Source of the DNA: a virus
Direction: 5' to 3' (one strand)
IMG/VR virus record: IMGVR_UViG_3300013285_000073
Location: 1-24,840 of that record
Length of the DNA stretch: 24,840 nt
In this document: piece after piece, positions 228-18,839 of the stretch
How the letters are laid out: each line of letters starts with the position of its first letter
How positions within the stretch are numbered: the first letter of the stretch is position 1
Notes under the pieces: generated by a model
Told to the model about the DNA's origin: nothing
Databases searched by the model: none
The model's input: only the letters and a program-made list of their open reading frames with translations
Position numbers and translations under genes: made by a program

Positions 228-246
228 ATTGAAACAGGAGACTTTT

Positions 247-465: not shown

Positions 466-468
466 ATA
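462..468 (+). promoter_or_regulatory. Late-promoter-like motif ATAAATA overlapping a stop codon
   Basis: ATAAATA contains the TAA stop (463-465) of the gene at 247. T4 spacing would put the start of transcription near 474, just before the Shine-Dalgarno GAGGAG (476-481) of the gene at 489. One base differs from the full 8-bp consensus. Confidence 0.4.
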
Positions 469-488
469 GTATATTGAGGAGACTTTAA

Positions 489-809
489 ATGGCTATTACT
501 TACGAATGGGACGTCCAGTCAATTGATGTCATTTCTGAATACAATACTAGCAAGGATGTTGTTAGTAGAGTTGTATGGAAATGCACAGCAAATGATGGAA
601 CATATACAAAAGAAATGACTGGGGTCCAAGACCTTAATATTTCTAATCTTGATCCAGAAAATTTTGTTCCGTACGATACTGTCACAAAAGAGCAGTTACT
701 AACCTGGGTTAAAGTTTGGGTTAATGTTCCGGCAGTTGAGCGTTCTTTAATCCCTAATGTGTATACACGCCATTTTGCAGGAGATTCTCTTGCACAGCCG
801 GAGGCTTAA
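489..809 (+). CDS. DUF7936-like small phage protein (106 aa)
   Basis: The start ATG 489 is fixed by GAGGAG at 476-481 with a 7-nt spacer. The protein opens with AITYEWDVQSIDV and has the pattern VVSRVVWKCTANDGTYT, FVPYDTVTKEQLLTWV. This matches my memory of the DUF7936 family (N-terminal ITYxW strand, central W-x-x-x-A-x-DGT turn, then FxPYxxLT and a C-terminal helix). It is a paralogue of the gene at 813 and of the truncated gene at the left edge. It is soluble, with no signal peptide or membrane segment. The gene at 813 follows after 3 bases. The role is unknown; it is probably a small virion or tail accessory protein by location only. Confidence 0.75.
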   Translation: MAITYEWDVQSIDVISEYNTSKDVVSRVVWKCTANDGTYTKEMTGVQDLNISNLDPENFVPYDTVTKEQLLTWVKVWVNVPAVERSLIPNVYTRHFAGDSLAQPEA

Positions 810-1574: not shown

Positions 1575-3028
1575 AAAACTAAACGCCAATCTCCTGGATG
1601 ATATATACCGTCAACGGATTTACTCCACTCAACACCGTCCCATTTGTATTGTGTACCTGTGTATGAATTAGTTATATAAGTTACTTCTTGTGGGACTGTA
1701 CTATCGAATATAACATTCCATTGTGTGCCGTTCCACTGAATGATGTCGTTAGCATGTGCAATTAATCTTTCAGTTTGGGTGTTAGATTGACCAAATTTTT
1801 TCCAAGTAATTGGTGCAAATTCTTCTGCTACACTATTATCTGTATTAATATCTTCTAAAATAAGATATCTGGTATCGGTATCAATATTTTGTCCAGGATT
1901 AAATGTTAGCGGATTAATAATAGCATTAATTGTTCCTCTAACATGATTATGTTCTAAATCATAAAGATCAGTATTAAGCAATGTTTCATTGTCGTATGTT
2001 AGACTTAACAATTCCATCTCGTCTTCTGCTAAAGGATTGATTGTTAAGTAAGCAATTACTTCTTTGCCGTCCGGCCTTTTAAATGCCGCGTAACTTAATC
2101 CTGCCCTAAATTTTCCAGGATAAAGATCTAACAGTTTATTCCATTGGATTTTAATATCGTTTTTAATAGGCACTTCTTCTAATGCATTATTGCGTGTATT
2201 TTCACCGGCATGCATCAATCTTGCTGTGCCGTCTGTTATTAACACACTATACTGCCCCGGGGTTACTATAACCTGAGCATTTGGATTACCAAAAATTAAC
2301 TCGCCGTTACCAACAGTACCTTCTGGCTCGGTAAAAATATTGGTAATAATTTTAGTAATAATTCCTAGTTTTCTAACCTTGGCAGGAGTTGTTATCCAAA
2401 TTGGGCAACTAAAAGTTAACGAAGCAATATCAATCTCTCCTAATGCTCCCTGACCTACGGTCCTGTTAGACCAATTTATATTAGATAATTCAACGTAACT
2501 TAAACTAGTCCAGTCAATATAATTGCTAGTGGTTTGTATTTCTAGTGCAGGTCTAAACAAAACTAAAATCTGCTCGAGCATTTGAAGTTTTTGTTCAGTA
2601 TTGGTACTCCAAATGTCAGCCATAAACTCAATAGTATAGGGGGTGGGCATCAATCTTTCGACTGTATAATTTTCTCCTTGTGTATTTCCGTAGTCTTTTA
2701 TGACTTCGCCGTATGTAGGACTATCGGGATTTTCATCGACATACTCCCATTGTCTTTCCCTTACATTTATTTTACTAACAAAAGTAGGATCTTGTAATCG
2801 TTCTCTAGATAAGTTTAGACTTTTTATGTAACAGGCAATGAACGGAGCAGAGTTCATTATATTCTCACTATTCTGTGTAAGGATAGATGCTGCCTGGCGA
2901 CTCATATCGCCATAACGAACAGGTACCTGAATAGGGGTATTTTGATTATTTGAGTAACTAAAATTACTCATCAACCGCATAAATTGGGCCAAGTATCGGC
3001 GTATCTGCCCATCATAAAAAAGTTCCAT
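1571..3028 (-). CDS. 15: Tail sheath stabiliser / tail completion protein, T4 gp15-like, with C-terminal extension (485 aa)
   Basis: The N-terminus shows the gp15 pattern known from T4-type marine phages: YDGQIRRYLAQFMRLMSNF, then VPVRYGDMSRQAASILTQ, SAPFIACYIKSLNLSRERL, FVSKINVRER and MPTPYTIEFMADIWST. In T4, gp15 forms the hexamer that caps the finished sheath and tube and joins the tail to the neck. T4 gp15 is about 272 aa; this protein is far longer. The extra part (about residues 240-485) is Asp/Asn/Tyr/Trp-rich and contains IIQWNGTQWNVIFDS and YKWDGVEWSK, a small module also seen in gp14 and gp18 of this window. The ATG (3028-3026) shares one base with the gp14 TAA. It lies on the minus strand with gp14, opposite to gp13. 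Confidence 0.8.
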   Translation of the reverse strand: MELFYDGQIRRYLAQFMRLMSNFSYSNNQNTPIQVPVRYGDMSRQAASILTQNSENIMNSAPFIACYIKSLNLSRERLQDPTFVSKINVRERQWEYVDENPDSPTYGEVIKDYGNTQGENYTVERLMPTPYTIEFMADIWSTNTEQKLQMLEQILVLFRPALEIQTTSNYIDWTSLSYVELSNINWSNRTVGQGALGEIDIASLTFSCPIWITTPAKVRKLGIITKIITNIFTEPEGTVGNGELIFGNPNAQVIVTPGQYSVLITDGTARLMHAGENTRNNALEEVPIKNDIKIQWNKLLDLYPGKFRAGLSYAAFKRPDGKEVIAYLTINPLAEDEMELLSLTYDNETLLNTDLYDLEHNHVRGTINAIINPLTFNPGQNIDTDTRYLILEDINTDNSVAEEFAPITWKKFGQSNTQTERLIAHANDIIQWNGTQWNVIFDSTVPQEVTYITNSYTGTQYKWDGVEWSKSVDGIYHPGDWRLVL

Positions 3029-4263
3029 TAGTTATCTGCCTTTGGTTTGTTAGTTTTTAATGCTTTACTTAATGACTGGCGCTCTTTGACCGCTTTACCG
3101 TTAATAGTAGATGACGCATCATTATTAATAAACGATCCAATCTGTGTTTGCCTTGTTTTATTAATAGCATCTGGTTTACCGTCTACTGGCTTATTAGTCA
3201 TTGTCATGCGCACATTTGTTTCTTGGAATACCCAATGACGCCCGTCAAATTTAAATAATCGATTAGGCATATAATCTATTCTTAAACAAAATGCACCCTT
3301 GTAAGGACTATGTGGGAAATCAGTTCCTGAAGTGTAAGGAGCACCATTAGCCGGAACGCCATCGCCTGTTAGATATCCTACGTATATATTTTTTTCGGAA
3401 TTAACAAATACAGAACTAGCATCAACCGTAGAATCGTCTTCGCTAGCATCTCTTTCTTCGTCACTGGCATCTTGTAATGCCAATGAGTGATCATCTTTTA
3501 ATGGCAGTACGTACATTTGATTAGTATCATATCCGCTTAGGGGAGCATCTAATTCTGCTTGAGCAATAATCTGATTATTGATTTCGATATTTTTATTATA
3601 CAATGAAAATACATCTGCAAGTTTAGTTCCATCGGGCACACCTGTTGGTATACCTGTATTAGGATCTGCAGTTACTTCTTGATTAAGAATCTGAGCAAAT
3701 TCTTGTGCGTTGACCATTGGTTCACATTTAGCACGAAGTAAATGTGGATACCATGTTTGACTATAACCTGTTGCGGCACGATTAATTTCTGACACAACAT
3801 AAAACTTTCTTAATGCAACCATAGAATCATTTAGTGCATACTCATCACGTAAGTGAGGCAGTTCTAAAACATCACCTATCATCAATTTACGGCCTAACGC
3901 TTCGACAGTACTTCTTAAATGAAATGTAATCATTACATTATCGTTGCTCAAAAAGAATCCAAATTGCATTAGATTAAAATCTATATCTTGCATGGTATAA
4001 ATTCCACGCATTATGTAAATATCAGGTTCATATTTACGATCTCTGTTTTCCATAAACAGCACATCTTGTATCCCTAACTCTGGAATAGGATTGCCGTTAA
4101 CTGGAGTAGCGGGTGTTGCTTCACCAGAAACAGGATCTATAGGTCCTACATATTTGTGGACATAAACATCAACTCCGCCCACCTGAAATTGTTCAGCAAT
4201 GTTGCGGTCTAACATTTTGAAATCATTGCCCTTTTCAGGACGGTACATGGATAGTCTTGGCAT
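3028..4263 (-). CDS. 14: Neck protein, T4 gp14-like (411 aa)
   Basis: The start is placed at ATG 4263 (MPRLSMYRPEKGNDFK). This is the conserved beginning of gp14 in T4-type marine phages; an ATG ten codons upstream would read through the promoter. Further family-like pieces are EQFQVGGVDVYVHKYVGP, FMENRDRKYEPDIYIMRG, DIDFNLMQFGFFL, LGRKLMIGDVLELPHL and YALNDSMVALRKFYVV. In T4, gp14 and gp13 build the neck that joins the DNA-filled head to the tail. It is longer than T4 gp14 (about 256 aa): after about residue 215 comes an Asp/Ser-rich segment and a module GAFCLRIDY...LFKFDGRHW shared with gp15 and gp18. No Shine-Dalgarno is visible; TATAAATA ends 7 nt before the ATG. Confidence 0.85.
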   Translation of the reverse strand: MPRLSMYRPEKGNDFKMLDRNIAEQFQVGGVDVYVHKYVGPIDPVSGEATPATPVNGNPIPELGIQDVLFMENRDRKYEPDIYIMRGIYTMQDIDFNLMQFGFFLSNDNVMITFHLRSTVEALGRKLMIGDVLELPHLRDEYALNDSMVALRKFYVVSEINRAATGYSQTWYPHLLRAKCEPMVNAQEFAQILNQEVTADPNTGIPTGVPDGTKLADVFSLYNKNIEINNQIIAQAELDAPLSGYDTNQMYVLPLKDDHSLALQDASDEERDASEDDSTVDASSVFVNSEKNIYVGYLTGDGVPANGAPYTSGTDFPHSPYKGAFCLRIDYMPNRLFKFDGRHWVFQETNVRMTMTNKPVDGKPDAINKTRQTQIGSFINNDASSTINGKAVKERQSLSKALKTNKPKADN

Positions 4264-4279: not shown

Positions 4280-4286
4280 GTAAATA
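4280..4286 (+). promoter_or_regulatory. Late-promoter-like motif GTAAATA for gp13 (plus strand)
   Basis: GTAAATA ends exactly 5 nt before ATG 4292 and no Shine-Dalgarno is present. Together with the opposing TATAAATA at 4271-4278 it forms an inverted repeat (TATTTA, 4-nt spacer, TAAATA) that fills most of the 28-bp gap between gp14 and gp13. Confidence 0.5.
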
Positions 4287-4291
4287 GTAGC

Positions 4292-5050
4292 ATGAACGAA
4301 ACAGAAACCGAAAAACAAAAAGTGGTTGATTATATCAAGACCTCTCTAGGCGACGGTATGATTGACGTAGAACTGGATCCTAAACACTACGATCTTGCTA
4401 TAGATATTGCCCTGCGCAAGTATAGACAACGTAGTCAAAACTCCGTAGAAGAAAGTTTTGGATATCTAACACTGCAAACAGATGTTAACGAATACCAGTT
4501 AGCACCCGAAGTTATGCAGGTTAGACAGATTTTTAGAAGAAGTATCGGTTCTAGATCAGGCGGCGGCGATGGTGGTACGCTATTTGAACCATTTAACTTG
4601 GCCTATTCTAATACCTATCTATTAAGCAGTTCTAACATGGGCGGCCTAGCAACTTACATGATGTTTTCTCAGTACCAAAATCTAGTTGGTAAAATGTTTG
4701 GTTCGTTTATTAATTTTGATTGGAATTCAGTAACTAAAAAGTTAAGGATTACACAACGTCCTCGAGGCGAAGAAAATGTACTGCTTTGGATGTATAACTA
4801 CAAACCAGATTTTATATTATTTCAAGATACCTGGGCAGGTATTTGGATTAGAGATTACGCAACAGCACGAGCAAAAGTCATCTTAGGCGAAGCCCGCGAA
4901 AAGTTTGCTACCATTGCTAGCCCGCAAGGCGGAACAAATCTAAACGGAACGGCACTAAAGGCCGAAGGCAAGGCTGAAATGGAAATGCTAGAGCAGGATC
5001 TAATTAACAACAAAGATAACCAACAGCCGTTGACATTTGTCATAGGATAA
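4292..5050 (+). CDS. 13: Neck protein, T4 gp13-like (252 aa)
   Basis: The protein begins MNETETEKQKVVDYIKTSLG, then IDVELDPKHYDLAIDIALRK, YRQRSQNSVEESFGYLTLQ, a Gly/Ser-rich stretch, FINFDWNSVTKKLRITQRP and IWIRDYATARAKVILGEARE. It ends in a Gly/Asn loop and a helix. This order (an N-terminal Y-x-x-ALxxYRxRS helix, Tyr/Asp-rich beta core and C-terminal helix with WIRDYATARAK) is typical of gp13 of T4-type phages. In T4, gp13 binds the portal ring and, with gp14, closes the head and accepts the tail. It is shorter than T4 gp13 (about 309 aa). The neighbours fit: gp14 and gp15 diverge from the same 28-bp gap. The early promoter of the next gene begins inside its last codons. Confidence 0.85.
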   Translation: MNETETEKQKVVDYIKTSLGDGMIDVELDPKHYDLAIDIALRKYRQRSQNSVEESFGYLTLQTDVNEYQLAPEVMQVRQIFRRSIGSRSGGGDGGTLFEPFNLAYSNTYLLSSSNMGGLATYMMFSQYQNLVGKMFGSFINFDWNSVTKKLRITQRPRGEENVLLWMYNYKPDFILFQDTWAGIWIRDYATARAKVILGEAREKFATIASPQGGTNLNGTALKAEGKAEMEMLEQDLINNKDNQQPLTFVIG

Positions 5051-6090: not shown

Positions 6091-6097
6091 CTAAATA
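6091..6097 (+). promoter_or_regulatory. Late promoter CTAAATA for tail sheath gp18
   Basis: CTAAATA in the gap before gp18. With T4 spacing transcription would start near 6103, giving a 28-nt leader with Shine-Dalgarno GGAG at 6120-6123, so this gene is leadered. Confidence 0.5.
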
Positions 6098-6130
6098 TTG
6101 AGAAGAAAACCATTATATGGGAGATTTGAA

Positions 6131-9100
6131 ATGGCACTAAATTCACCAGGCGTACAAGTATCAGTTATCGATCAGAGTTTTTATCTACCGGCGGCTCCGT
6201 CGACAACTCCTATGATCTTTGTAGCGAGCGCAAGCAACAAAAAAAATGCTAGCGGAACAGGAACTGCTCCGGGCACGGATCCTGCTAATGCAGGTAAAGT
6301 TTGGCTAATTACTAGCCAGCGAGATTTATCAGAGACATTTGGTACTCCATTGTTCTACACAGACGCAAATGGTAATCCAATACATGGCGGAGAACTAAAC
6401 GAATACGGTCTGCAAGCCGCATACAGTTTGCTAGGTGTTAGTTCACAAGCATACATTGTACGTGCCGATTTAGATCTAGGATCTTTGCTTCCTCAATCTT
6501 CTAACCCAGAAGGAAAGCCAGTTAATGGAACTTACTGGTTAGATACATCAAATACTAAATGGGGTATTTTTGAGTGGAACAAAGTTAATCAAGCATTTAC
6601 AAACAAGATTCCGTTAATTATTGATAACGCAAATTTAGCAACTGCTACTAGTGATAATATGACGCCTAAAGACAGTTTTGGAACAAACGGTTCATACTGT
6701 GTCGTTGCTGGAACAACTGAAGTTCACTACTGGTACAAAAACAAAGACGGCAATTGGTTAGAAATTGGTAGCAATGTAGAAACTGGTTTTAGTGCTTCCG
6801 CTACTTGGAAATCTACTGTATGGCAAACTTCATGGCCTGTAGCAACAAGTACCAAGGCTAATCCAGATCTTTCCGCTTTTAATGGACAGACATTTGTAAT
6901 TAACAGACAGACTATTACATTAAGTGGCGTTACAATTACAGCGTTAGCCAACTCTATTAACACAGTTGGCCATACTAAAGGTTTTGGCGCTAGAATTAAT
7001 GCAAGTGGTTACTTAGACCTTTATGCAGATGCAACAGCAAAATCAGACGGCACAAACCCAGACGGTAAAATAGCCGTAACAGGAAATGGTACAGGTGGTA
7101 CTGCTATGTTGACCGCAATTGGTATTGATGGATTGCCTGCAACATGTGCAGGGGTTACACTATTCCAAGGCCCTCATACTAAGCATCCCGACTACACACT
7201 GGATCCAACTGGATCAGTTTATGTTAAAACAACTTCGCCAAACGCAGGTGCAAATTGGACAGTAAAAATTTATAACGCCGCAAGTGGCGGATTTACAGGT
7301 GTAAACGCTCCAATATATGCTGACGGACAAACAGCCCTCAATACCTTAGGTACTGCGGCAGTAGGAAGTTTATTTGTTGAACAGAACTATGATAAGGGAA
7401 CAGGAGTATGGAGTACATCAAGTGATAATACCCAGTTTGCAAAATTTAATATCTGGCGTAGAAATAGCACAGGTCCTACAACAGTTTTATCCACTGCAAC
7501 TACTGCTGTTGTAAGCACAGCATCAAGTTTCAATATTATTGAAGGTCTAAAAACATCAACTGGCGGTGTTGCTAACTATAGCAATCCTGTGACAGTAAGT
7601 TTAGCACGTAATGATACACTTGATGCAATCATTGGCAAAATTAATGCCGCTGGACTAACTTATGTTTCAGCAGTTCCTGGAAGTTACGATGACATCGGTA
7701 ATGCTACTAGTGTAAGTATTCAACACTCAGCAGGTGGTGAAATTAAATTCCTAGATGGATTGGCAACACCTTTGTCAACATTGTTACGATTAACTCCATG
7801 GGGAAGAAACACAGACGGCATGGAAACAGGTACGCAAAACTTCTATGCCGCTGGCGAGTTTGAAGGCGACGGATACCAGTATTACGCAAGTAACTGGAAA
7901 CCATTGGTATACCAACCTGACTCAGTAGTACCTTACACTGACCCAGCAGACGGTACACTATGGTACAGTTCTGTTGTAGATCAGGTTGATATTTTATATC
8001 ACAACGGTAATAATTTTGTTGGTTATAAAGATGCAACAGCATTTCCTAACTCAGACCCAGCCGGTCCTATTGTATCTGCACTAGCACCTACTACACAAAG
8101 CGATGGTACACCATTGGTTAACGGTGATATATGGGTTGACACATCCGATATTGATATGTATGGAAAGAACATTTATGTTTATAACGGAACTACACTGAAG
8201 TGGGTAGCACAAGATGCAACAGATCAAACAACACCAAATGGTTGGTTGTTTGCTGATGTACGTTGGGCAAATATGGGAACAGACGGTCCTACAATTAACA
8301 CAACAGTTAAAACTCTGTTAACAAGCAATTATGTAGATCCAGATAGTCCAGATCCAGCACTATATCCAAAAGGTATGCGTCTATGGAATCTACGTAGAAG
8401 CGGATTCAACGTAAAGAAATACGAATCTAACTACATCAATATTAACTCTAACGATGGTAAAAATGCTCGTTACGGTGATGAAGTTATGAACGGAGCAAAC
8501 AGTGGATCGACTTATGTTGCTGGACGTTGGGTTACTGTAAGTCCAAACAATGCTGACGGTTCTGGTGCATTTGGACATCACGCACAACGAGGATTTGTTG
8601 TTGCCGGTATGAAGGCACAAATTGATACAAATCAAGCGATCCGTGATACAGATTCAGTTATATTCAATCTAATTGCTTGCCCTGGATATCCAGAAGCAAT
8701 TCAAAACATGATTGCGTTTAATATTGATCGTGGCCAAACAGCATTTGTAATCGGCGATACACCGTTTAAACTAAAACCAACAGGTACAGATTTAGCAGCC
8801 TGGGGTAATAACACAAACGGTGCATTTGACAACAACGACACTGGTGCTGTAAGTTACGATGCTTACATGGCCATGTACTATCCAAGTGGTTACACAAACG
8901 ACAACACAGGAAACTACATTGTTGTTCCACCAAGCCATATGATGCTACGCACTATTGCATTAAGCGACCAACAAAGTTTTGAATGGTTTGCACCAGCGGG
9001 CACACGCCGAGGAAATGTTAACAATGCAACATCAGTTGGTTATGTTAAGGACGGCGAATTTAAGAGTACCGCTCTTCCAACCAGTTTACGAGATGTGCTA

Positions 9101-10173: not shown

Positions 10174-10187
10174 TTTTATTAACTAAC

Positions 10188-10220
10188 GTAAAAAGGCTCA
10201 TAAACTGGGCCTTTTTTTAC
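10188..10220 (+). terminator. Rho-independent terminator after gp19
   Basis: GTAAAAAGGC pairs with GCCTTTTTTTAC across a short loop and ends in a T7 run. The near-symmetric A and T runs mean it could also work on the minus strand. It closes the gp18-gp19 unit, and a late motif for the next gene begins 3 bp later. Confidence 0.75.
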
Positions 10221-10222
10221 GG

Positions 10223-10229
10223 CTAAATA
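10223..10229 (+). promoter_or_regulatory. Late promoter CTAAATA, 5 nt before ATG 10235
   Basis: CTAAATA immediately after the gp19 terminator. The string TAAATATTAGTATG here is identical to that at the gp17 start (15241-15254). No Shine-Dalgarno is present; T4 spacing would start the mRNA at the A of ATG. Confidence 0.6.
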
Positions 10230-10234
10230 TTAGT

Positions 10235-11932
10235 ATGAGCAACATACTGAGTAGTTTTCTTAACGGAGTTTTTGGACCAGATTTGAAAAGTTATTCTCAC
10301 GCTTCAAGATTATACGTAGATAACTTTTATCAATATGCTCCAAAAAATGGCTGGATTTATTATGTGGTGTTTAACATTAACAGAAGCATTACTCTACCAT
10401 TAGTAAAAAGTTTTGCAGACAATAATCCAACAATAGGTGCATTAGTTAAAACTGCTGAACTTCCTAAATTTAAAATTGCAACAGAAGTATTGAACCAGTA
10501 CAATAAAAAAACGTATGTTCAAAGCAAAATAGAATATACTCCTGTTAGTTTAACACTTCATGACGATCATGATAATACAACAACTGCATTATGGGAAGCA
10601 TACTATAGATATTACTTTGCTGATAATAGTGAACCGTCAACTGATTTCAATTTAGGGCCAAAAAAATTCGATGATCAAAAATACAGACCGCAGGTAGCCA
10701 ATGGGTCCCGAGTTGATTATGGCCTTAATAATGGCATAAAACAATACCTTCCGTTTTTTAGAAGTATATCAATTTTTCAACTCAATAGACAACAATTTAC
10801 TGGATTTAATTTAGTAAACCCTGTAATAACTGATTGGGCCCATGACACATTAAATCAATCTGAAAGCAAATTCTTAGAAAATAAAATGACTATTGGTTAC
10901 GAAACTGTGCAATATGCAACTGGAAAATTAAAAGGTAGTAATCTCGGTCCTGACGCTTATTTAGAAATTATATATGATAAAACTCCTAGTCCGCTAGGTG
11001 TAGGCGGATCTGGGGTGTCAAAAGCAATAGGTGGAATATTAGGTATCACTGATTTACTTGGTGGAGATGCGGCAAAATCTGGATTTATAGCATATCCGTT
11101 AGGCGGCGATGAATTTAGTGCAGTACCCGGAAGACCTGCAAGGTCGGCAACCGGTATTACTACAATTGGTGGTAAGACTTTAGGTGGGATTGCAGGAGGA
11201 TTTCTAAAAGGGGCAATAGGAGATACAGTGGGCAAAGGACTACAACAGTTAGGATTGTCATCTAATATAGCATCAAGGGTAGCAGGAGTAGCCGGTGGTA
11301 TTGGCACATCATTAATTTTAAACGGAGTCTCAATCCTACTTACTCCTACAAAAGCAGGAGTAAATGGACAACGCCCAATACAGAATCAACCAGGTGCTGG
11401 TAATCCTCAAAGTTCAGATCCGGCACAAAAAGCCGCACAAGCCCAACAGACTATTAATAATTCTCAAGGTGCCACAAGTAATGTCGACACCGCAAACCAA
11501 GCGGTTGCTGACGCACAAAATAATGTTACAGATATTCAAGATAAAATAACAACCAACCAGGCAATCAAAGACCAGTTTCAATCTGAACTTGACGCGGCAG
11601 ATGCATCGGGAGATCCGGCACAAAAAGCCTCTGTACTTGCAAGATTATCAGCCGCAGGATACACAGATCCTGCAGAATTAGAAAATAATTTAAGTCAAGC
11701 ACGTCAGCAGAGAGACAAAGCACAATTACAATTAGAACAGGCTACACAACTGCAAGATCAAGCAAAATTATCTTCTGAAGCAGAAGGTGATAGCCCTCCA
11801 GGACAACCGGCGGTGACTACAGATCTTCAACCGAAAAATCAAATAGACTATAATAACTTTGATTTTGAACAGCCAACTTACGCAAATAGCAATAGTGAGA
11901 ATAGTGATAACTCTATAGATTTTGGACCTTAA
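10235..11932 (+). CDS. Tail-tube-fold / baseplate tube-initiator-like structural protein with coiled-coil tail (565 aa)
   Basis: Residues ~30-250 look like a tube-type fold: WIYYVVFNINRS, LVKTAELPKFKIATEVLNQY, KIEYTPVSLTLHDDHDN, ALWEAYYRYYFAD, and a second half ending FLENKMTIGYETVQYATGK. This order resembles gp19 and the related T4 gp48/gp54 tube-initiation proteins, so a baseplate-tube junction role is likely but inferred. Next is a Gly/Ala-rich region (~250-385; GGILGITDLLGG, TIGGKTLGGIAGGFLKG, SRVAGVAGGIGTSLILNG) that might insert into a membrane or serve as a flexible core. A Gln/Ala/Asp-rich coiled-coil-like segment follows (~395-515; VADAQNNVTDIQDKITTNQ), then an acidic Asn/Ser tail. 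No Shine-Dalgarno; a late motif ends 5 nt before ATG. Another structural role cannot be excluded. Confidence 0.65.
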   Translation: MSNILSSFLNGVFGPDLKSYSHASRLYVDNFYQYAPKNGWIYYVVFNINRSITLPLVKSFADNNPTIGALVKTAELPKFKIATEVLNQYNKKTYVQSKIEYTPVSLTLHDDHDNTTTALWEAYYRYYFADNSEPSTDFNLGPKKFDDQKYRPQVANGSRVDYGLNNGIKQYLPFFRSISIFQLNRQQFTGFNLVNPVITDWAHDTLNQSESKFLENKMTIGYETVQYATGKLKGSNLGPDAYLEIIYDKTPSPLGVGGSGVSKAIGGILGITDLLGGDAAKSGFIAYPLGGDEFSAVPGRPARSATGITTIGGKTLGGIAGGFLKGAIGDTVGKGLQQLGLSSNIASRVAGVAGGIGTSLILNGVSILLTPTKAGVNGQRPIQNQPGAGNPQSSDPAQKAAQAQQTINNSQGATSNVDTANQAVADAQNNVTDIQDKITTNQAIKDQFQSELDAADASGDPAQKASVLARLSAAGYTDPAELENNLSQARQQRDKAQLQLEQATQLQDQAKLSSEAEGDSPPGQPAVTTDLQPKNQIDYNNFDFEQPTYANSNSENSDNSIDFGP

Positions 11933-11938
11933 ACACTC

Positions 11939-12301
11939 ATGTATAATAACATACCGTCACAAAAAACATCATCATCTAGCGATGCAACAGTACAATTTTT
12001 TAACAATCAAAAACCCTCCCAAATAGATAACAATATATTAGTTGCTATGACAGGTATTTTAGAAACTAGAGGGTGGACTACTGAATCTGCTGAAAACATT
12101 TCAATTGCTATTTTAATTCAAGCCAAGAAAGATGGCTACAATGCCATGCAAATATTAGAGTCTATTAAAGGACTAGCACAATCTGACCTTAGCGTATTAG
12201 TAGCAGAAATACTTAATAACAATAGATACAAGACAAGTAGTTTAGGAGTTATTCAAAATGTAATTCCAGTTGACAATGTTAAACGTAATATAATAGCATG
12301 A
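11939..12301 (+). CDS. Small virion-type hypothetical protein (120 aa)
   Basis: It begins 6 bp after the preceding stop, without a clear Shine-Dalgarno, and its TGA overlaps the ATG of gp4 as ATGA, so it is part of one transcript. The N-terminal ~30 residues are Ser/Gln/Asn-rich and probably disordered. The rest is a helical domain (ILVAMTGILETRGWTTESAE, NISIAILIQAKKDGYNAMQI, LAQSDLSVLVAEILNNNRYK). It has no Cys, signal peptide or membrane segment. By location, between a baseplate/tube-like protein and head completion gp4, it may be a tail or baseplate part. I do not recognise the family with certainty. Confidence 0.7.
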   Translation: MYNNIPSQKTSSSSDATVQFFNNQKPSQIDNNILVAMTGILETRGWTTESAENISIAILIQAKKDGYNAMQILESIKGLAQSDLSVLVAEILNNNRYKTSSLGVIQNVIPVDNVKRNIIA

Positions 12302-12735
12302 GAGCAACAGCCCGAGGAAAATTTATAATACGTAATCCTGACAAATATGTAGGAGTAGGAGAACCAACGTACCGGTCAAGTTGGGAAATGACTTTTATGA
12401 TGTTTTGTGATAACAACCCATCAATACAACAATGGGCCAGTGAAAGTGTTAAGATACCGTATCGAGATCCCTTAACTGGCAAGAACACAGTATACGTTCC
12501 TGATTTTTTAATTGTATATGTAGATAAGAATATGAAAAAACATGCAGAACTTATTGAAATTAAACCAAGAAATCAAGCCGTGTTAGAGTCTGTAGGAAAA
12601 AATCCTTATAATCAAGCTCAATATGTTAAAAATATGGCAAAATGGCAGGCCGCACAAGCATGGTGTAAACGAATGGGATTAAGATTTAGAGTTGTAAGTG
12701 AAGAAGATTTGTTCCATACCGGTAAAAAACGATAA
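12298..12735 (+). CDS. 4: Head completion protein, T4 gp4 (gp50)-like, nuclease fold (145 aa)
   Basis: The protein reads GKFIIRNPDKYVG, YRSSWEMTFMMFCDNNPSIQ, IPYRDPLTGKNTVYVPDF, KKHAELIEIKPRNQ and KMAKWQAAQAWCKRMGLRFR. This is the T4 gp4 layout (about 150 aa), with a TnsA/PD-(D/E)xK-like core: Asp in PDF and E-I-K in LIEIKP, plus a Gln helix after it. In T4, gp4 acts on the DNA-filled head before tail joining. It may trim the DNA end left by terminase; that activity is inferred from the fold. It sits directly before the terminase genes and starts by ATGA overlap with the preceding gene. Confidence 0.85.
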   Translation: MRATARGKFIIRNPDKYVGVGEPTYRSSWEMTFMMFCDNNPSIQQWASESVKIPYRDPLTGKNTVYVPDFLIVYVDKNMKKHAELIEIKPRNQAVLESVGKNPYNQAQYVKNMAKWQAAQAWCKRMGLRFRVVSEEDLFHTGKKR

Positions 12736-12743
12736 GTAAAATT

Positions 12744-13220
12744 ATGACAAAAAAACTAGAAGAACTGTTTAACGTTCCTCCTACAGAAGACCCCATTATT
12801 GAGCCTGCTGAAGTTACTGATCAGCCAATGATTAGTTTAGAAGATAAACTTGAACAATTTGATAAAATTGCGGCCGCCTTGCCTAGAGTTAAAGGATTGG
12901 GCGATGTTAGCGATGCTGAGTTAGATAGTCTGGCCAATAAAGCAGAACAGGCTTACGATGATCTCATGGATTTAGGAATGAATGTAGAAGCACGGTATGG
13001 CGCCCGTATGTTTGAAGTTGCCGCACAAATGATGAACGCCGCAATTACTGCTAAATCTAACAAAATAGACAAAAAACTGAAAATGATTGATCTACAGATT
13101 AAGAAGTACGGTATTGATAAAAAGCAAGGAAATCAAGACCCTGAAGCAATCCAAGCAGAAGGTTACTTAATTACAGACCGTAATAGTCTCCTTGAGAAAC
13201 TTAAAAAGATGGATAAATAA
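12744..13220 (+). CDS. 16: Small terminase subunit, T4 gp16-like (158 aa)
   Basis: An acidic N-terminal region (PPTEDPIIEPAEVTDQPM) is followed by a helical pair: SDAELDSLANKAEQAYDDL and ARYGARMFEVAAQMMNAAI, then TAKSNKIDKKLKMIDLQIKK. The R-x-F-E-V-A-x-x-M hairpin is the central coiled-coil of T4-type small terminases, which form a ring that regulates gp17 and recognises replicated DNA. The length is close to T4 gp16 (164 aa). It lies two genes upstream of gp17, whereas in T4 genes 16 and 17 overlap. Shine-Dalgarno weak. The stop codon is embedded in a late-promoter-like motif for the next gene. Confidence 0.8.
   Translation: MTKKLEELFNVPPTEDPIIEPAEVTDQPMISLEDKLEQFDKIAAALPRVKGLGDVSDAELDSLANKAEQAYDDLMDLGMNVEARYGARMFEVAAQMMNAAITAKSNKIDKKLKMIDLQIKKYGIDKKQGNQDPEAIQAEGYLITDRNSLLEKLKKMDK
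13213..13219 (+). promoter_or_regulatory. Late-promoter-like ATAAATA over the gp16 stop codon
   Basis: ATAAATA ends 7 nt before ATG 13227, with no Shine-Dalgarno in between. The motif partly reflects the gp16 end codons Asp-Lys-stop, so it could be chance. Confidence 0.35.
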
Positions 13221-13226
13221 AATATC

Positions 13227-13817
13227 ATGAAATCACTCAAAGAATATATCACCGAATCAAAGAAAACCTGGTCCTTTCGTGTAAAGGTAGCGGGTGATGT
13301 CACCACAGAGGATGAGACTAAATTACGCGGATTACTTGATCGTTTCAGTATAACTGACTTCAAAAAAACAGCACAAACACCAGTCCAATCATTTCCTCTA
13401 GACTTTCCAAAAATTAGAAATCGTAATGTTAATGTATGGGAAGTAACACTTGATTATCCTACTACAGCAAACGAATTAACAGAATACCTAAGCTCAAACT
13501 TAGGAAGAACAAACGAAGAATTAGTTGTTCGTTCACCTTACGAACCAACTGAAGAATATCAACAGCCTATTGGCGAGTTTAGAGACACTGCGCTACTAAA
13601 CGATCCCGACTACAAAGAATCACCTAATGCTAATTGGGACGATCATTGGGGTCAAAAGCACAATGAAAGTTTAATTAAAACTTTAAGTGCTGAATCAAAG
13701 AAACGTAGAGCCGAGCTTGGTGAAAAAATTCCATCCGGTGAAACCCAGTCTGTAATGGACAACACGGTATATAGTAAAGCCCCAATAACACAGGCTCCAG
13801 ATCCTAGAAGGAAATAA
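13227..13817 (+). CDS. Putative internal head protein with capsid-targeting-like N-terminus (196 aa)
   Basis: The first ten residues MKSLKEYITE match the capsid-targeting peptide of T4 internal proteins (MKTYQEFIAE in IPIII) in length, charge and the I-x-E end, where the prohead protease gp21 cuts. The rest has a beta/alpha core: KKTWSFRVKVAGDVTTEDE, LRGLLDRFSITDFKK, PVQSFPLDFPKIRNRNV and WEVTLDYPTTANELTEYL. A flexible Pro/Glu/Lys-rich C-terminal half follows (EPTEEYQQPIGEF, NANWDDHWGQKHNESL). It lies between small and large terminase genes and has a late-type motif. I infer that it is loaded into the prohead, processed, and perhaps delivered with DNA. Function otherwise unknown. Confidence 0.75.
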   Translation: MKSLKEYITESKKTWSFRVKVAGDVTTEDETKLRGLLDRFSITDFKKTAQTPVQSFPLDFPKIRNRNVNVWEVTLDYPTTANELTEYLSSNLGRTNEELVVRSPYEPTEEYQQPIGEFRDTALLNDPDYKESPNANWDDHWGQKHNESLIKTLSAESKKRRAELGEKIPSGETQSVMDNTVYSKAPITQAPDPRRK

Positions 13818-13819
13818 TT

Positions 13820-15196
13820 ATGCAAATGATCAATGTACTAAAACGCCTAGCAGAACTAGACGCACAAAATCCAAGAGTTGAAAAACCCAGAGTAATGGAG
13901 ACACCTGTATTAGGTGGTAATGGTATCAAACAGTTAGATGTGAATATGCCTGAGCCAGATATGAAAACATTACGTCAATTATCGGGTTTAATGGAAAGCA
14001 GAGAGTTTGGCAATTCAATTGCCGAATGTGGTATGCCAGGAATGGGTGCTCCTATGCCAAGTACTCCAGCAAGTTTAAGTATGACAGCAGGCAATGCTAA
14101 CGAGATCGTCACTATGATGCGTGGTCTTGCTGATATTGCAAGCGGTGCTTCACATTCTGGTATGCCAGGAATGGGTGCTCCTATGCCAACTGGCGCCGAT
14201 ATGTTAGGTGGAGGTGATATGCCTTCTCCTATGGATTTAGATCACGACGGCGATATGGACGGTGTTGCAATGGATATGGGTGCAGAACCAGAAATGAGCG
14301 GTGACGAGTTAGGCGGTGGTCCAATGGGCGGTGACGAATTAGCCGACATGGTAAACAAATTAAAAACAGGTCAGCCAGTTAAGATTAGCACAAACATGCC
14401 AGTTAAAGTTAAAACTTCTAACCCAGTATCCGATGGTGACAAGCCAGGTGCAGATGACGAAGATGAAAGCATGGCGGAAGACATGAGAGTATGGGATACA
14501 AGTCCTAAAGAACAAACCCGTGACTACAATCCAAATGACTTTGCTCAAATGTTTAACAAGATCAAAGATCTAGATGTTGCTAAAGCCGCTACTAGGGCAG
14601 ATAATCCGTTAAAAAGAGAAAGCGTTGAACAACAACCGACAGATTCATTAACAGAATTAACAAATCAGTTGTTTGCTGACTACCAAGCATTTGTAAATGA
14701 AGGCAAAGGTACATGTTGCTGTAAAACAAAGGGCGAAGCAAAATGCCCAGTACATGGTAAAATGGACGAAGCAAGAGCCAAAGAAGGCAACGCTTTTGGT
14801 AAAGCAGTACGTGATGCTAAAAAAGACGGAGTTCAACCTGGCGAAAAAATTAAGGTCGGTGGCAAATCATATCCAGTTAAAGAAGCCGAACGCACCATGA
14901 GCAGAGCAGCCAAGGGTGTAATGAAGTACGGAAAAGACGGTATGCAAGCATTAGCAAAGGCCGGAAAAGAAGGTAAAAATCTAGATAAAGTTAGAGACAA
15001 ATACAATAAGTATGACGAAGCCTATAATGTAAATGGTGTAGATGCAGAACATGCTCGTAAAATAAAAGCACATCATAGAGCAGAACTTAAAAAGAAAGCA
15101 GATGCCGGCGATGAAAATGCTAAAGCAAGATTAGCCCAGGCAGAAAAGAATGATGCGAGCCGTCGTGCAGATTTTGACGCTCGCATGGAACGTTGA
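13820..15196 (+). CDS. Met/Gly-rich acidic virion or prohead-core-like protein (458 aa)
   Basis: GAAGGAA (13807-13813) precedes ATG 13820. The first ~70 residues are helical and hold three [LI]-x-E sites (LAE 10-12, LME 57-59, IAE 67-69) of the kind cut by T4 gp21. Next is a low-complexity Met/Gly/Pro part with a 32-nt exact DNA repeat (GMPGMGAPMP twice). It includes a Ca-loop-like D139-L-D141-H-D143-G-D145-M-D147-G. Then come an acidic linker and a Cys/His cluster C299-C-C301-x7-C309-x2-H312. The C-terminus is a basic, Lys/Ala-rich, charged helix (RDKYNKYDEAYNVNGVD, AELKKKADAGDENAKARL). I do not recognise it. Position before gp17 and composition suggest a scaffold/core or packaged protein. 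A strong terminator follows. Confidence 0.75.
   Translation: MQMINVLKRLAELDAQNPRVEKPRVMETPVLGGNGIKQLDVNMPEPDMKTLRQLSGLMESREFGNSIAECGMPGMGAPMPSTPASLSMTAGNANEIVTMMRGLADIASGASHSGMPGMGAPMPTGADMLGGGDMPSPMDLDHDGDMDGVAMDMGAEPEMSGDELGGGPMGGDELADMVNKLKTGQPVKISTNMPVKVKTSNPVSDGDKPGADDEDESMAEDMRVWDTSPKEQTRDYNPNDFAQMFNKIKDLDVAKAATRADNPLKRESVEQQPTDSLTELTNQLFADYQAFVNEGKGTCCCKTKGEAKCPVHGKMDEARAKEGNAFGKAVRDAKKDGVQPGEKIKVGGKSYPVKEAERTMSRAAKGVMKYGKDGMQALAKAGKEGKNLDKVRDKYNKYDEAYNVNGVDAEHARKIKAHHRAELKKKADAGDENAKARLAQAEKNDASRRADFDARMER
14029..14060 (+). repeat. Direct repeat copy 1 (32 bp)
   Basis: Exact 32-nt match to 14158-14189, 129 nt apart; encodes GMPGMGAPMP. It lies within the Met/Gly-rich part of the gene at 13820. 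Confidence 0.9.
14158..14189 (+). repeat. Direct repeat copy 2 (32 bp)
   Basis: Second exact copy of the 32-nt repeat at 14029-14060. Identity at third codon positions points to a recent duplication or to gene conversion rather than selection on protein alone. Confidence 0.9.
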
Positions 15197-15210
15197 TATT
15201 ACTAACTCCA

Positions 15211-15237
15211 AATAGGCTCTTCGGAGCCTATTTTTTT
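15211..15237 (+). terminator. Strong Rho-independent terminator (TTCG tetraloop)
   Basis: AATAGGCTC pairs perfectly with GAGCCTATT around a TTCG loop (15220-15223), followed by a T7 run. It separates the gp4-gp16 unit from gp17. The next late motif begins 3 bp after it, the same terminator-then-promoter layout as at 10188-10229. Confidence 0.93.
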
Positions 15238-15239
15238 CA

Positions 15240-15246
15240 GTAAATA
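15240..15246 (+). promoter_or_regulatory. Late promoter GTAAATA, 5 nt before the gp17 ATG
   Basis: GTAAATA followed by TTAGT and ATG 15252; no Shine-Dalgarno. The 14 nt from T15241 to the ATG are identical to those at 10224-10237. Confidence 0.6.
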
Positions 15247-15251
15247 TTAGT

Positions 15252-16844
15252 ATGGCAAAAATATTAGACGGTAATTTAATTAAGAAAGCACACACTACTC
15301 AGAAATTTTCTGAGGAGGATATTGAGCATCTAATAAAATGCCAGGATCCAGTCATTGGGCCGCATTATTTCTTAGACAACTTCTTTCACATCCAACACCC
15401 TACTAAAGGTAAACTAAAGTATGTGGCATATGATTATCAACGTAGATTAATTGACAGTTATCATGATCATAGATTAAACGTTAATTTACTACCTCGACAA
15501 ACAGGTAAGACAACAACAGCCGCCGGCTATCTGTTATGGTACGCTATGTTTGTTCCAGACAGCACTATCCTAGTTGCCGCGCACAAAGGTTCAGGTGCTA
15601 TGGAGATCATGGGCCGTGTACGTTACGCATACGAACTTTGCCCTGACATCATACGATGTGGTGTTACAAGTTATAACAAACACAGTATTGAGTTTGACAA
15701 CGGATCGCGTATTGTTGCGCAGACAACAACTGAAACAACTGGTCGCGGTATGTCATTATCATTACTATACGCCGACGAGTTTGCATTCGTCGAACCTAAT
15801 ATTGCGGTCGAGTTTTGGACTTCAATTTCGCCTACACTAGCAACTGGTGGTAAGGCAATTATTACAAGTACTCCAAACTCGGACGAGGATCAATTTTCAC
15901 TAATTTGGCACGAAGCAAATAAGATGACCGACGAGCATGGTAATAAGACAACAGTGGGTCGCAACGGATTCTTTCCGTTTAGAGCACATTGGGAAGAGCA
16001 TCCAGACCGCGATCAAACTTGGGCAGATGAACAAATGTCACAGTTAGGCGAAGAACGTTTCCGTCGCGAGCACGGTTGCGAATTCTTGATCTTTGACGAA
16101 ACACTGATTAACTCCATTGCTCTTGCAGGTATGGAAGCCAGTGAACCTATTATGAAGATGGGGCAGGTCCGGTGGTACAAGAAAATTGACCCTCGTCATT
16201 TGTATCTAATAGCACTAGACCCTGCACTAGGTACGGGCGGCAACTTCTCTGCTATTGAAATTCTAGAACTACCTACGTTTGAACAAGTAGGAGAATGGCA
16301 TCACAATACAACTCCTATACAAAGTCAAGTTAGGATCTTGCGAGAAATATGTAAGTTTATCAATAACGAAATACAAAGTGATAACCCGCAAAATCCGCAG
16401 ATCTATTATTCTGTAGAAAACAATACAGTTGGTGAAGCCGCATTGGTTGCTATCAACGAAATGGGCGAAGAAAGTATTCCGGGGATGTTTATGAGCGAGC
16501 CTATTAAAAAAGGACATGTACGAAGATTTCGTAGAGGATTTAATACCACAAATCAAAGCAAGATTGCGGCCTGTGCTAAGTTAAAACAGTTAATTGAGCA
16601 AAAGCGTCTAAAGGTACATTCCTCAAGTTTAATATCAGAACTCAAAACTTTTATTGCTAAAGGTATTAGTTTTGAAGCCAAAACTAACGAATACGATGAC
16701 CTCGTAGCGGCTATGTTGCTAGTAATGCGTATGGCAGGGATGATGGGAGATTGGGATCAAACTGTATACGAAACTATGATTGAAGACCGTGCTTTAGAAG
16801 ATTATGATCTACCCATGCCCGTTTATATCGGTAATTGGCAATAA
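15252..16844 (+). CDS. 17: Large terminase subunit, T4 gp17-like (530 aa)
   Basis: This is the packaging motor ATPase with a nuclease domain. The ATPase part has Walker A PRQTGKTT at residues 81-88, Walker B LLYADE at about 171-176 and the coupling motif ITSTPN at about 204-209. The nuclease (RNase H fold) shows LIALDPALGTGGNFSAIEIL with Asp ~324, YYSVENNTVGEA with Glu ~390, and EYDDLVAAML with Asp ~482, matching the acidic residues of T4 gp17. The length is somewhat below T4 gp17 (610 aa), mainly because the N-terminal region is short. It is placed alone behind a strong terminator with its own late motif and probably a leaderless start. The next gene begins 9 bp after its stop. Confidence 0.95.
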   Translation: MAKILDGNLIKKAHTTQKFSEEDIEHLIKCQDPVIGPHYFLDNFFHIQHPTKGKLKYVAYDYQRRLIDSYHDHRLNVNLLPRQTGKTTTAAGYLLWYAMFVPDSTILVAAHKGSGAMEIMGRVRYAYELCPDIIRCGVTSYNKHSIEFDNGSRIVAQTTTETTGRGMSLSLLYADEFAFVEPNIAVEFWTSISPTLATGGKAIITSTPNSDEDQFSLIWHEANKMTDEHGNKTTVGRNGFFPFRAHWEEHPDRDQTWADEQMSQLGEERFRREHGCEFLIFDETLINSIALAGMEASEPIMKMGQVRWYKKIDPRHLYLIALDPALGTGGNFSAIEILELPTFEQVGEWHHNTTPIQSQVRILREICKFINNEIQSDNPQNPQIYYSVENNTVGEAALVAINEMGEESIPGMFMSEPIKKGHVRRFRRGFNTTNQSKIAACAKLKQLIEQKRLKVHSSSLISELKTFIAKGISFEAKTNEYDDLVAAMLLVMRMAGMMGDWDQTVYETMIEDRALEDYDLPMPVYIGNWQ

Positions 16845-16847
16845 ATA
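16841..16847 (+). promoter_or_regulatory. Late-promoter-like ATAAATA over the gp17 stop codon
   Basis: ATAAATA includes the gp17 TAA (16842-16844) and ends 6 nt before ATG 16854. No Shine-Dalgarno for the downstream gene. Confidence 0.4.
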
Positions 16848-16853
16848 CACATT

Positions 16854-18839
16854 ATGAATATTATTGAAATGATAGCCCAAGACGTGTTTGATAAAGTACG
16901 TTCTCGCTTCAGCAACCTAGAAATGGGTGACGGTGAGGGTAATACTACAAACAATCCAAAAGAAGCTCGATTTTTTGACTTCGATTTTGCCATTGAGGGT
17001 AACACTCTTGGCAGAGTTAGTGTTAGTATCAATGACATAGGTACACTTAAGGTGTATTATGGACAAGGTATTACTGAAGGAACTGACAGCGTTATTAGAG
17101 GTGTATGGTACGATTTTTTAAAAGAAATGCGTATGTTTGCCATGCGTAGAATGTTACGGTTTGATACAAGAGATATCAATAAAGGCAATTTAAACAAAAA
17201 TGATTTTCAATACCTCGCCACAAACGGACCTAAGGAAAGCAACATGACCGAATCACAATATTTTGGTAGTTCTAAAACAAGTTATAGAGCACTAGAAAAC
17301 ACAAAACTTATTATCAAGCATAGTCAAGCAGTTAACGAAACACAGCCTGGTGCCAGAAGTAGACACATTAGCGCATTGTTTATTGAAAATTCAGATGGTG
17401 AACGTTTTAAATATCCGTTTAATCACTTGTCTGGTGCAAAAGCCATGCAACGTCACGTAGCCAATGGCGGCCGCCCATATGATGATAAAGGCACAGCAAT
17501 TATTGATATGAGTGAAAGTATTATTCAACTAAATGTTTTTAAACGTCAAGCCGCTCGTGAAGGATTTGTTAATGAAAGCACACAAGATATTTTTGAACGT
17601 GCTATGGTTAAGTTAGAACAACTACGTCAAGATTGTACTAATTTAAGCAAACAAACATATTATGAAAATTGGTCTAATAACTTTAAGACTAATGCTCGTG
17701 CTGAATTGGACGAAGTTACTTTAGAAGATTACAAAGATAAATTCACAGTTCGTCAGTTTGAAGATAACCTAACAAGCATTTTTCCTCTACTACATGCTAT
17801 CATGCAAGAAACCAGCGAGATCGATCTTGCTGATGTTATTGAAAGTACAGAAAAATGTGGTGAATGTGGCATGATGGAATGTGAATGTGATCATGTTGAG
17901 GAAGCAAATGACAACGATCCTCCATTTGATCCAGATCCTAAAAAGAAAAATCCTCCTGCAAAACCGGGTAAACATGGCCAAGGATATTCTACCGCAAAAC
18001 ATCTTGCCAAACAAGGAATGAAACAAGCAGAAAAATCTGCATCAGAAAGTTTTGAGATGTTTGATGAATGGGCAGATGCTATTGTTGAAGGTTATTTAGA
18101 GCCAGATACAATTATGGCTCTTAAGGATCTTTTAGACAACGGTTTAACATTAGGGGCAGATGCTACTAGTGCTGTTGAAGCACTAGAAAGTATTGGAATC
18201 CATGACGAAGATTTGGCAGATGCATTAGAAGGTCTTGCTAAAGTCAATCCAGAAGCCGATCCAAGAGAAACTATTGTAGCATGGGTAGCACACACTGACC
18301 CAGAAGCCGCTCAAGAATTAAGTGCTGAGCCAGCCGCAGAGCCAGCACCCGAACCTGCTCCAGTAGAACCCTCTCCTGAAGCACCAGTTGAACCTGCACC
18401 GGAGGCCGATCCGGCCGCAATGGCACCGGCCCCCGAAGCACCAGTAGCAGAAGATGAGGACTCTATGGATAACGAAGAACCACAACCACAACGTGCAAAT
18501 ATGAGAGAGATTGCTGAAGTAGTTAAATCATTCTATGATCGTGAAACAGGACGTTTCCCCAAAGGTGAAACAGGAGTTGTTGTTCACTGTAAGAAAATGT
18601 TCGGCGATCAAGGCGGACAACTTGCAGAACGTCTAGTTGCTCATCTAAGCCAACGCTCACATCAGCAGATGGCCTATGAAGATATAACTCGTATGTTAAA
18701 ACTAGCCGGCATCAAAGAAGGTGTTGAAAAAAGTCAAATACCTGCGTACAAACGTAAAGAAAAAGGCGGCGATTGGAAAATGTCTACCAAAGATTTGGAA
18801 GATGAAAAACCAAGAGCCCTACAAGTAGCGCAGGCCTAG
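16854..18839 (+). CDS. Conserved large virion-type protein of unknown function (661 aa)
   Basis: Residues 1-~230 form a conserved-looking globular domain: FFDFDFAIEGNTLGRVSVSI, LKEMRMFAMRRMLRFDTRDI, FGSSKTSYRALENTKLIIKH, GARSRHISALFIENSDGERF, YPFNHLSGAKAMQRHVANG. I have seen this pattern in proteins of other large environmental phages, always without a function. A helical part follows, then a Cys/His cluster C335-x2-C338-x4-C343-x-C345-x-H347, a DPPFDPDPKKK linker, and a helical domain (~400-480). Next is a PEPA-type Pro/Glu/Ala repeat (~490-545) and a C-terminal helical domain (MREIAEVVKSFYDRETGRFP, YEDITRMLKLAGIKEG). The last codons may be out of frame with the following gene; see the finding at 18806. 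Confidence 0.8.
   Translation: MNIIEMIAQDVFDKVRSRFSNLEMGDGEGNTTNNPKEARFFDFDFAIEGNTLGRVSVSINDIGTLKVYYGQGITEGTDSVIRGVWYDFLKEMRMFAMRRMLRFDTRDINKGNLNKNDFQYLATNGPKESNMTESQYFGSSKTSYRALENTKLIIKHSQAVNETQPGARSRHISALFIENSDGERFKYPFNHLSGAKAMQRHVANGGRPYDDKGTAIIDMSESIIQLNVFKRQAAREGFVNESTQDIFERAMVKLEQLRQDCTNLSKQTYYENWSNNFKTNARAELDEVTLEDYKDKFTVRQFEDNLTSIFPLLHAIMQETSEIDLADVIESTEKCGECGMMECECDHVEEANDNDPPFDPDPKKKNPPAKPGKHGQGYSTAKHLAKQGMKQAEKSASESFEMFDEWADAIVEGYLEPDTIMALKDLLDNGLTLGADATSAVEALESIGIHDEDLADALEGLAKVNPEADPRETIVAWVAHTDPEAAQELSAEPAAEPAPEPAPVEPSPEAPVEPAPEADPAAMAPAPEAPVAEDEDSMDNEEPQPQRANMREIAEVVKSFYDRETGRFPKGETGVVVHCKKMFGDQGGQLAERLVAHLSQRSHQQMAYEDITRMLKLAGIKEGVEKSQIPAYKRKEKGGDWKMSTKDLEDEKPRALQVAQA

Follow-up and report, generated by a model that had tools for sequence, protein, structure and literature searches.

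Probable T4-type late promoters set against the start codon point to leaderless late mRNAs in a group of T4-like phages

The textbook leaderless phage message is that of a single gene, lambda cI, and translation of leaderless mRNA requires an AUG start codon. Such mRNAs of bacteria and of lambda begin with a 5'-terminal AUG and lack a Shine–Dalgarno (SD) sequence, as described in parts of two papers (PMC9031893; PMC3160421), and 70S ribosomes are able to engage an AUG located at the 5' terminus or close to it, bS1 being dispensable, according to the relevant section of one of them (PMC9031893). In phage T4 the first T of the late promoter box lies at -13 by the published account, in the section concerned (PMC2988020), which would place +1 five bases after its TAAATA core. 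We describe here late genes of a virus record of 24,840 nucleotides (IMG/VR record IMGVR_UViG_3300013285_000073, positions 1 to 24,840; hereafter the window) and of its relatives, in which TAAATA ends only a few bases before the ATG. At these genes T4-type late promoters very probably fire at the A of the ATG and so produce leaderless mRNA, beside other late genes that are led by an SD.

The window is that of a T4-like myovirus by its PHROG matches, which include a gp13-like head–tail adaptor, a gp14-like structural protein, a sheath stabiliser, tail sheath gp18, tail tube gp19, head closure gp4, terminase large subunit gp17, the gp32 single-strand binding protein, UvsX, UvsY and the gp41 DNA helicase; the nearest cultured gp17 is that of the Pseudomonas jumbo phage PA5oct (54%). 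Its group has in common with T4 the TAAATA box, its place at late structural genes, a gp55-family sigma factor and the use of the box at SD-led genes as well. T4 differs in that none of its 244 called genes has the box 4–7 nt before the ATG, most boxes being 12–29 nt away; in addition, the first two bases of TATAAATA are only weakly kept in the group, being poorly conserved in a tally of nine relatives whose base profiles span the 30 bases before the ATG. By comparison with the lambda cI and bacterial messages, the candidates here are late genes of T4-like phages and form a class tied to one phage promoter type.

Six genes of the window have the box next to the start, with the spacings that an earlier note on this DNA had given for them. 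The gap, counted as the bases between TAAATA and ATG, is 5 for the gp13-like head–tail adaptor gene (4292..5050, plus strand; core 4281..4286), for a tail tube paralogue gene (10235..11932, plus; core 10224..10229) and for the gp17 terminase large subunit gene (15252..16844, plus; core 15241..15246), all three predicted to be leaderless. It is 6 for a virion structural gene at 16854..18839 (plus; core 16842..16847, overlapping the gp17 stop codon), which is likewise predicted to be leaderless, and 7 for two genes whose predicted messages would be leaderless or have a 2-nt leader: a virion structural gene at 13227..13817 (plus; core 13214..13219, overlapping the stop codon of the preceding gene) and the gp14-like structural gene (3028..4263, minus; promoter TATAAATA at 4278-4271, back to back with the gp13 promoter). 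All six descriptions rest on PHROG matches, the 13227, 16854 and gp14 products falling among virion structural proteins. By eye, a terminator-like hairpin with a T run lies directly upstream of the 10235 promoter (10187..10221, plus) and recurs in many homologues, and a terminator hairpin with a T run lies directly upstream of the gp17 promoter (15210..15237, plus). The string TAAATATTAGTATG, said to be repeated at these two starts, occurs exactly twice in the window, at 10224-10237 and 15241-15254.

No usable SD precedes any of the six genes, as had been claimed, although the gp13 gene does score a formal 4-nt match (AGGT), which runs into the motif by one base and would be missing from the predicted RNA. 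The genes with a more distant TAAATA (19–33 nt upstream) do carry an SD, again as the earlier note had it: the gene at 247 (220..247, plus; TATAAATA at 220-227, gap 19, AGGAG at 236-240), the gene at 489 (463..489, plus; TAAATA at 463-468, gap 20, AGGAG at 477-481) and the gp18 tail sheath gene (6092..6131, plus; TAAATA at 6092-6097, gap 33, GGAG at 6120-6123, ATG at 6131). An automatic gene caller gives five of the six short-gap genes, the longest gp14 open reading frame (ORF) beginning upstream at 4293; the gp14 start is placed at 4263 by homology, because all seven gp14 homologues that could be placed have a gap of 5 or 7. Five called genes at gaps 4–7 compare with 0.3 expected (P = 2e-5), the expectation being the rate at gaps 8–45, which itself rests on three genes. 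The plain frequency of TATAAATA was rejected as a signal, there being 66 matches with at most one mismatch against 58 expected; what stands out in the window is the position of TAAATA relative to the ATG and not its frequency.

The same spacing was then sought in the best 80 of at least 600 IMG/VR relatives (59–76% identity in the best segment), counting on both strands every TAAATA followed by k bases and an ATG at the head of an open frame of 80 codons or longer. The distance is bimodal, with 239 cases at 4–7 nt, 20 at 8–16 and 121 at 17–27, and the short hump is centred on k = 5 (34, 147, 18 and 40 cases at k = 4, 5, 6 and 7) over a background of about two per gap at gaps 0–3 and 8–16. It is specific to ATG: at k = 5 there were 147 ATG codons as against no GTG, two TTG and three CTG, with three GTG at gap 4. 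Permuted hexamers peaked lower, with at most 72 cases at any one gap, and their higher peaks fall mostly at the gaps expected from overlap with TAAATA itself (ATAAAT 72 at 6, AAATAT 57 at 4, AATAAT 37 at 3, ATAATA 37 at 2 and AATATA 27 at 5); the largest peaks away from such gaps were TTAAAA, 30 at gap 3, and AATTAA, 23 at gap 5. Chance as the source of the spacing is ruled out by these permutations, by shifted spacing and by collection-wide controls. As the 80 loci are mutually homologous the counts are not independent events, a point that is addressed in part by the genome tallies and the gp17 tree below.

Nine long relatives with 973 genes were tallied genome-wide, genes being called as the longest ATG ORFs of at least 60 amino acids, a rule blind to both motif and SD. 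By gap (short being 4–7 and long 14–45), 77 genes were short, 114 long, 14 at 8–13 and five at 0–3, and 763 had no near motif; every one of the nine showed an excess at gaps 4–7 (P from 6e-8 to 7e-3). Gap 5 accounted for 45 of the 77, followed by gap 7 (12), gap 6 (11) and gap 4 (9). The earlier note had named beforehand, as the test that could overturn its proposal, a genome-wide tally of gap against SD strength, and the outcome favoured the proposal: an SD match of at least 4 nt was found in 9 of 77 short-gap genes versus 90 of 114 long-gap genes (Fisher P = 3e-21), and in 440 of the 763 genes without a near motif. Thus 68 short-gap genes are without a match, and of the nine matches six lie upstream of the box while three (all TAAG) overlap or follow it. 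A pyrimidine stands at -1 in 74 of the 77 short-gap genes versus 390 of the 763 motif-free genes (P = 5e-17) and 66 of the 114 long-gap genes; by gap, it is present in 67 of 68 genes at gaps 5, 6 and 7 and in seven of nine at gap 4. Transcription starting at the A of the ATG fits this -1 pyrimidine, so that box spacing and the preceding base together probably place the 5' end of the RNA at the start codon. In these genomes the variant TAAGTA is likewise in excess at gap 5 (7 versus 0.55 expected). The proposed split of late genes into two translation modes is supported by the scarcity of cases between the two humps, by start codons that are almost always ATG, by the -1 pyrimidine and by switching within a gene family, described below.

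Terminators, as scored with a home-made detector, preceded 13 of 82 short-gap genes, five of 117 long-gap genes and seven of 780 genes without the motif. The region upstream of gp17 has, in nearly all relatives of at least 67% identity, a hairpin, a T run and TAAATA in that order, with the ATG following after five variable bases or, rarely, more, and a DNA-only search of IMG/VR with the pattern T7C-NN-TAAATA-N5-ATG matched at least 120 stretches. Among the matches listed, 111 of 119 ATGs open an ORF of at least 80 amino acids (or at least 40 where it runs off the contig), compared with four ORFs in 23 stretches when the gap was set to 10 and one ORF in 67 stretches when TTAAAA replaced the core. 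Compared with the window, 110 proteins of at least 60 amino acids among the listed matches comprised 92 gp17, four gp14 and 14 with no window match.

The short gap was also counted by gene family, over homologous starts that could be placed among the relatives. Gaps of 4–7 were found at 50 of 77 gp17 starts, 68 of 75 starts of the 16854 gene, 35 of 42 of the tube paralogue, eight of ten of gp13 (all eight at gap 5, the other two at gap 16 with an SD) and seven of seven of gp14. None was found among 40 starts of gp19, of which 30 were long-gap and all of these SD-bearing, or among ten of gp18, of which nine were long-gap and seven of those had an SD; for the dNMP kinase, gp32, UvsX, UvsY, gp41 and the 13820 gene a box within 45 nt was present in three of 200 rows, at gaps 9–11. 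In the window the two tail tube family genes are consecutive (9538-11932), gp19 followed by the longer paralogue, and in relatives gp19 is SD-led with a mostly long-gap box while the paralogue is mostly short-gap without SD. At gp17, TAAGTA lies 5 nt before the ATG in loci L062, L071-L073, L075, L077 and L078, and 7 nt before it in L051, L052, L054 and L081.

The 13227 family switches between modes, with 16 short-gap members (15 without SD), 31 long-gap members (26 of them SD-bearing under the 4-nt criterion) and one at gap 8; the long-gap members have about ten extra bases, usually including AGGA. Mapped on the gp17 tree the mode changes five times without the window and six times with it, at least four changes being required by the starred branches. 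Between independent pairs, the SD shifts along with the mode or stays, and never goes the opposite way (median P 0.125 with gap 8 taken as short), a pair test that by itself has too few pairs and falls below significance.

The class is not limited to structural genes, judging by G001, a relative of 322 kb with 17 short-gap genes, one of them its gp17. Eleven others were scanned and eight had PHROG matches, namely polynucleotide kinase, a virion structural protein, tail tube, peptide deformylase, baseplate wedge, an ATP-dependent protease family and two of unknown function; three had none.

Among cultured phages the gap-5 class of the window group is shared by the pelagimyophage HTVC008M and by Mosig. 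It is strong in HTVC008M (11 genes at gap 5, P = 6e-14; P = 1e-9 over gaps 4–7), where in the stretch examined nine of nine gap-5 ATGs are the deposited starts, including those of the tape measure, end protector, head closure and tube cap, and where divergent end-protector and head-closure genes mirror the back-to-back gp13/gp14 layout of the window. Mosig has six genes at exactly gap 5 (P = 8e-5; P = 0.06 over gaps 4–7). The signal is weak in Melnitz (three at gap 5, P = 0.04; P = 0.6 over gaps 4–7) and in SCTP-2 (eight at gap 5 versus 2.4 expected, P = 0.003; -1 pyrimidine in six of eight; P = 0.5 over gaps 4–7), the SCTP-2 tally covering 396 of 440 kb against a background that includes the true long-gap hump. 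No gene at gaps 4–7 was found in T4, S-SSM5, Meroveus, ORM_20, Aeromonas phage 25 or Desulfovibrio phage 7757, and one each in Vibrio D494 and PA5oct, which rules out the short-gap class as a trait of all T4-like phages. Cyanophages have the late box NATAAATA in common with this group, according to the relevant part of PMC2984593; the cyanomyophages nevertheless differ, S-SSM5 lacking the class and P-SSM2 being rejected as a bearer, with six genes at gaps 4–7 that equal chance and a -1 pyrimidine in one of the six. As PA5oct, the closest cultured phage by gp17, is without it, the class was either acquired repeatedly or lost. In PA5oct the gp17 start as deposited falls within an apparent terminator hairpin (L083, 2956-2985); the true start may be an in-frame ATG 27 bases downstream, just past the T run, with neither SD nor TAAATA.

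A gp55-family sigma factor (phrog_234) was found in G001-G004 (E 1e-25 to 3e-24), that is in four of five long relatives searched, the 72-kb fragment G005 giving no phrog_234 match; none was seen among 26 scanned ORFs of the 25-kb window, for which no phrog_234-directed search was made. Genes of this family are also present in PA5oct, 121Q, T4, P-SSM2, HTVC008M and SCTP-2. In the scheme that we infer from these observations, a gp55-like sigma on the host RNA polymerase would recognise T4-type late promoters (core TAAATA, with TAAGTA tolerated), and in a subset of late genes this promoter would lie so near the coding sequence that +1 is the A of the ATG or within about two bases of it. The leaderless late mRNA would then be translated by recognition of its 5' AUG, other late genes of the same phage keeping a leader of about 12–28 nt with an SD. 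An SD-less ATG would presumably be read with good efficiency only when it is itself the 5' end of the RNA, read-through from upstream genes would be silent, and translation of short-gap genes would in this way be gated by firing of the late promoter.

Several observations weigh against this interpretation. With TAAATA at -11 to -6 the box fills the SD slot, so that the SD contrast is partly forced; points that do not hinge on it are a peak specific to ATG, the pyrimidine at -1, the shortage of cases at gaps 8–16, the terminators found upstream and the lack of the class in T4. If initiation were fixed at five bases, gaps 6 and 7 would leave leaders of 1–2 nt. There is a further bump of 42 cases at gaps 30–31 in the 80 loci, and the nine relatives have 14 genes at gaps 8–13, seven of them in G001. 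Of the 77 gp17 homologues 27 fall outside gaps 4–7, seven of these having a longer gap without SD; the remainder include TAAGTA at gap 5 (seven) or gap 7 (four). Starts of the gp16-like gene are of several kinds (13 of 48 short-gap, nine long-gap and 26 with no box; mostly without SD), and 24 of the 48 lack both box and SD, which a two-mode picture by itself leaves unexplained. Five of 13 short-gap genes in HTVC008M score an SD match of at least 4 nt, one of them AAGGA, and PA5oct, the nearest cultured relative by gp17, is without the class. Folding of the first 40 nt is weaker in short-gap genes (mean -2.1 versus -3.5 kcal/mol in strong-SD genes), which goes with lower G+C and may reflect composition alone. 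Of the T4 late factors gp55, gp33 (co-activator) and gp45 (clamp), the search covered gp55.

The alternative that survives best overlaps with leaderless initiation, which already allows two bases: initiation would occur a few bases upstream and give SD-less leaders of 1–4 nt. Late transcription start positions may vary somewhat, and 11 and 12 of the 77 genes do have gaps of 6 and 7; even so, the preference for exactly gap 5 (45 of 77) and the -1 pyrimidine, near-universal at gaps 5–7 and less so at gap 4, point to the A itself, and we regard this variant, functionally almost equal to a leaderless message, as possible yet unlikely.

A good deal less probable is that the TAAATA boxes are promoters but working mRNAs come from upstream, the ATGs being reached by translational coupling and the SD being absent since the box fills its slot. 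The motif does preclude an SD at those positions, and the boxes of the 13227 and 16854 genes overlap the preceding stop codon. Against coupling, gp13 and gp14 are divergent with back-to-back promoters and so have no upstream gene, the 10235 and gp17 starts sit behind terminators, and coupling predicts no fixed 5-nt spacing, -1 pyrimidine or terminator cassette. That TAAATA is instead a translation signal, an A/U-rich enhancer in place of the SD, would agree with a hexamer that is fixed relative to the ATG and replaces the SD, and is nonetheless very improbable, since the hexamer recurs 17–27 nt upstream of genes, most of which have an SD when the genomes are tallied, is found behind terminators, matches the established T4 late box and shows this spacing to a greater extent than its A/T permutations. 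Misassigned start codons, with the true starts downstream behind internal SDs, can be dismissed almost entirely: the starts here are predictions, but SD-led homologues share the first residue (offset 0 in most of the 13227-family rows listed), the peak is ATG-specific and the deposited HTVC008M starts agree in nine of nine cases in the stretch examined.

Ribosomal protein bS21 is encoded by G001, HTVC008M, PA5oct, Mosig, Melnitz and SCTP-2 and was not found in T4, 121Q, P-SSM2, S-SSM5, Desulfovibrio 7757, Vibrio D494, Meroveus, ORM_20 or Aeromonas 25. A gap-5 peak is present in five of six phages with bS21 versus none of eight without (P = 0.003, kinship ignored and the idea post hoc), or in one of eight without if P-SSM2 is counted as positive (P = 0.026); the shorter contigs G002-G009 are left out of this comparison, and SCTP-2 was chosen for carrying bS21, its gap-5 count being made afterwards. 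The class-bearing contigs G002-G005 (72–151 kb, probably incomplete) gave no bS21, which says little yet lends no support. It is conceivable, if doubtful, that aquatic T4-like phages use their own bS21 to retune host ribosomes toward leaderless late mRNAs and away from SD-led ones. The HTVC008M protein enters E. coli ribosomes and cuts GFP synthesis to about 5% in vitro, which its authors attribute, in the section that reports it, to factors that are absent or to a mismatch with the E. coli ribosome (PMC6375957); retuning, if true, could account for that output, the leader type of the reporter being unstated in that section. Against retuning, PA5oct has bS21 without the short-gap class, the Melnitz and SCTP-2 peaks are weak and vanish over gaps 4–7 as a whole, and bS21 is described in the same source as aiding the pairing of mRNA with 16S rRNA (PMC6375957). 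Two other candidates were rejected, IF3 as an alternative translation factor (none in eight genomes) and an initiator tRNA encoded by the phage (tRNA-Met was called in neither G001 nor HTVC008M).

Some features lie outside this argument. A tmRNA-like gene is present in both G001 (L095:5644-6016) and HTVC008M (L140:6520-6861). In the window, the adjacent small genes at 489 and 813 (489-1145) match one PHROG family of unknown function and look like a tandem duplication, and the tail sheath protein (6131-9514) is long, at about 1,130 residues, and matches large sheath families.

We found no report of leaderless late genes in T4-like phages in the open-access papers searched, judged by titles and abstracts. 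A point against novelty is that the AR9 paper remarks, in the part concerned, that leaderless transcripts are frequent in phages, with reference to a lambda-type study; the leaders of AR9 itself are given there as 26–491 nt (PMC5312081). Late promoter prediction was reported as unsuccessful in pelagimyophages in the relevant passage of PMC7029224, and a box that abuts the ATG may be one reason. The predicted leaderless late class is a new variation on the T4 late system, in which one phage promoter type appears to yield leaderless messages for virion and packaging proteins in pelagiphages as well as throughout a broad group of uncultured phages. It would give these phages a simple expression logic, the ATG being read only when transcription starts on it, and the bS21 idea offers a concrete hypothesis for why aquatic phages carry bS21.

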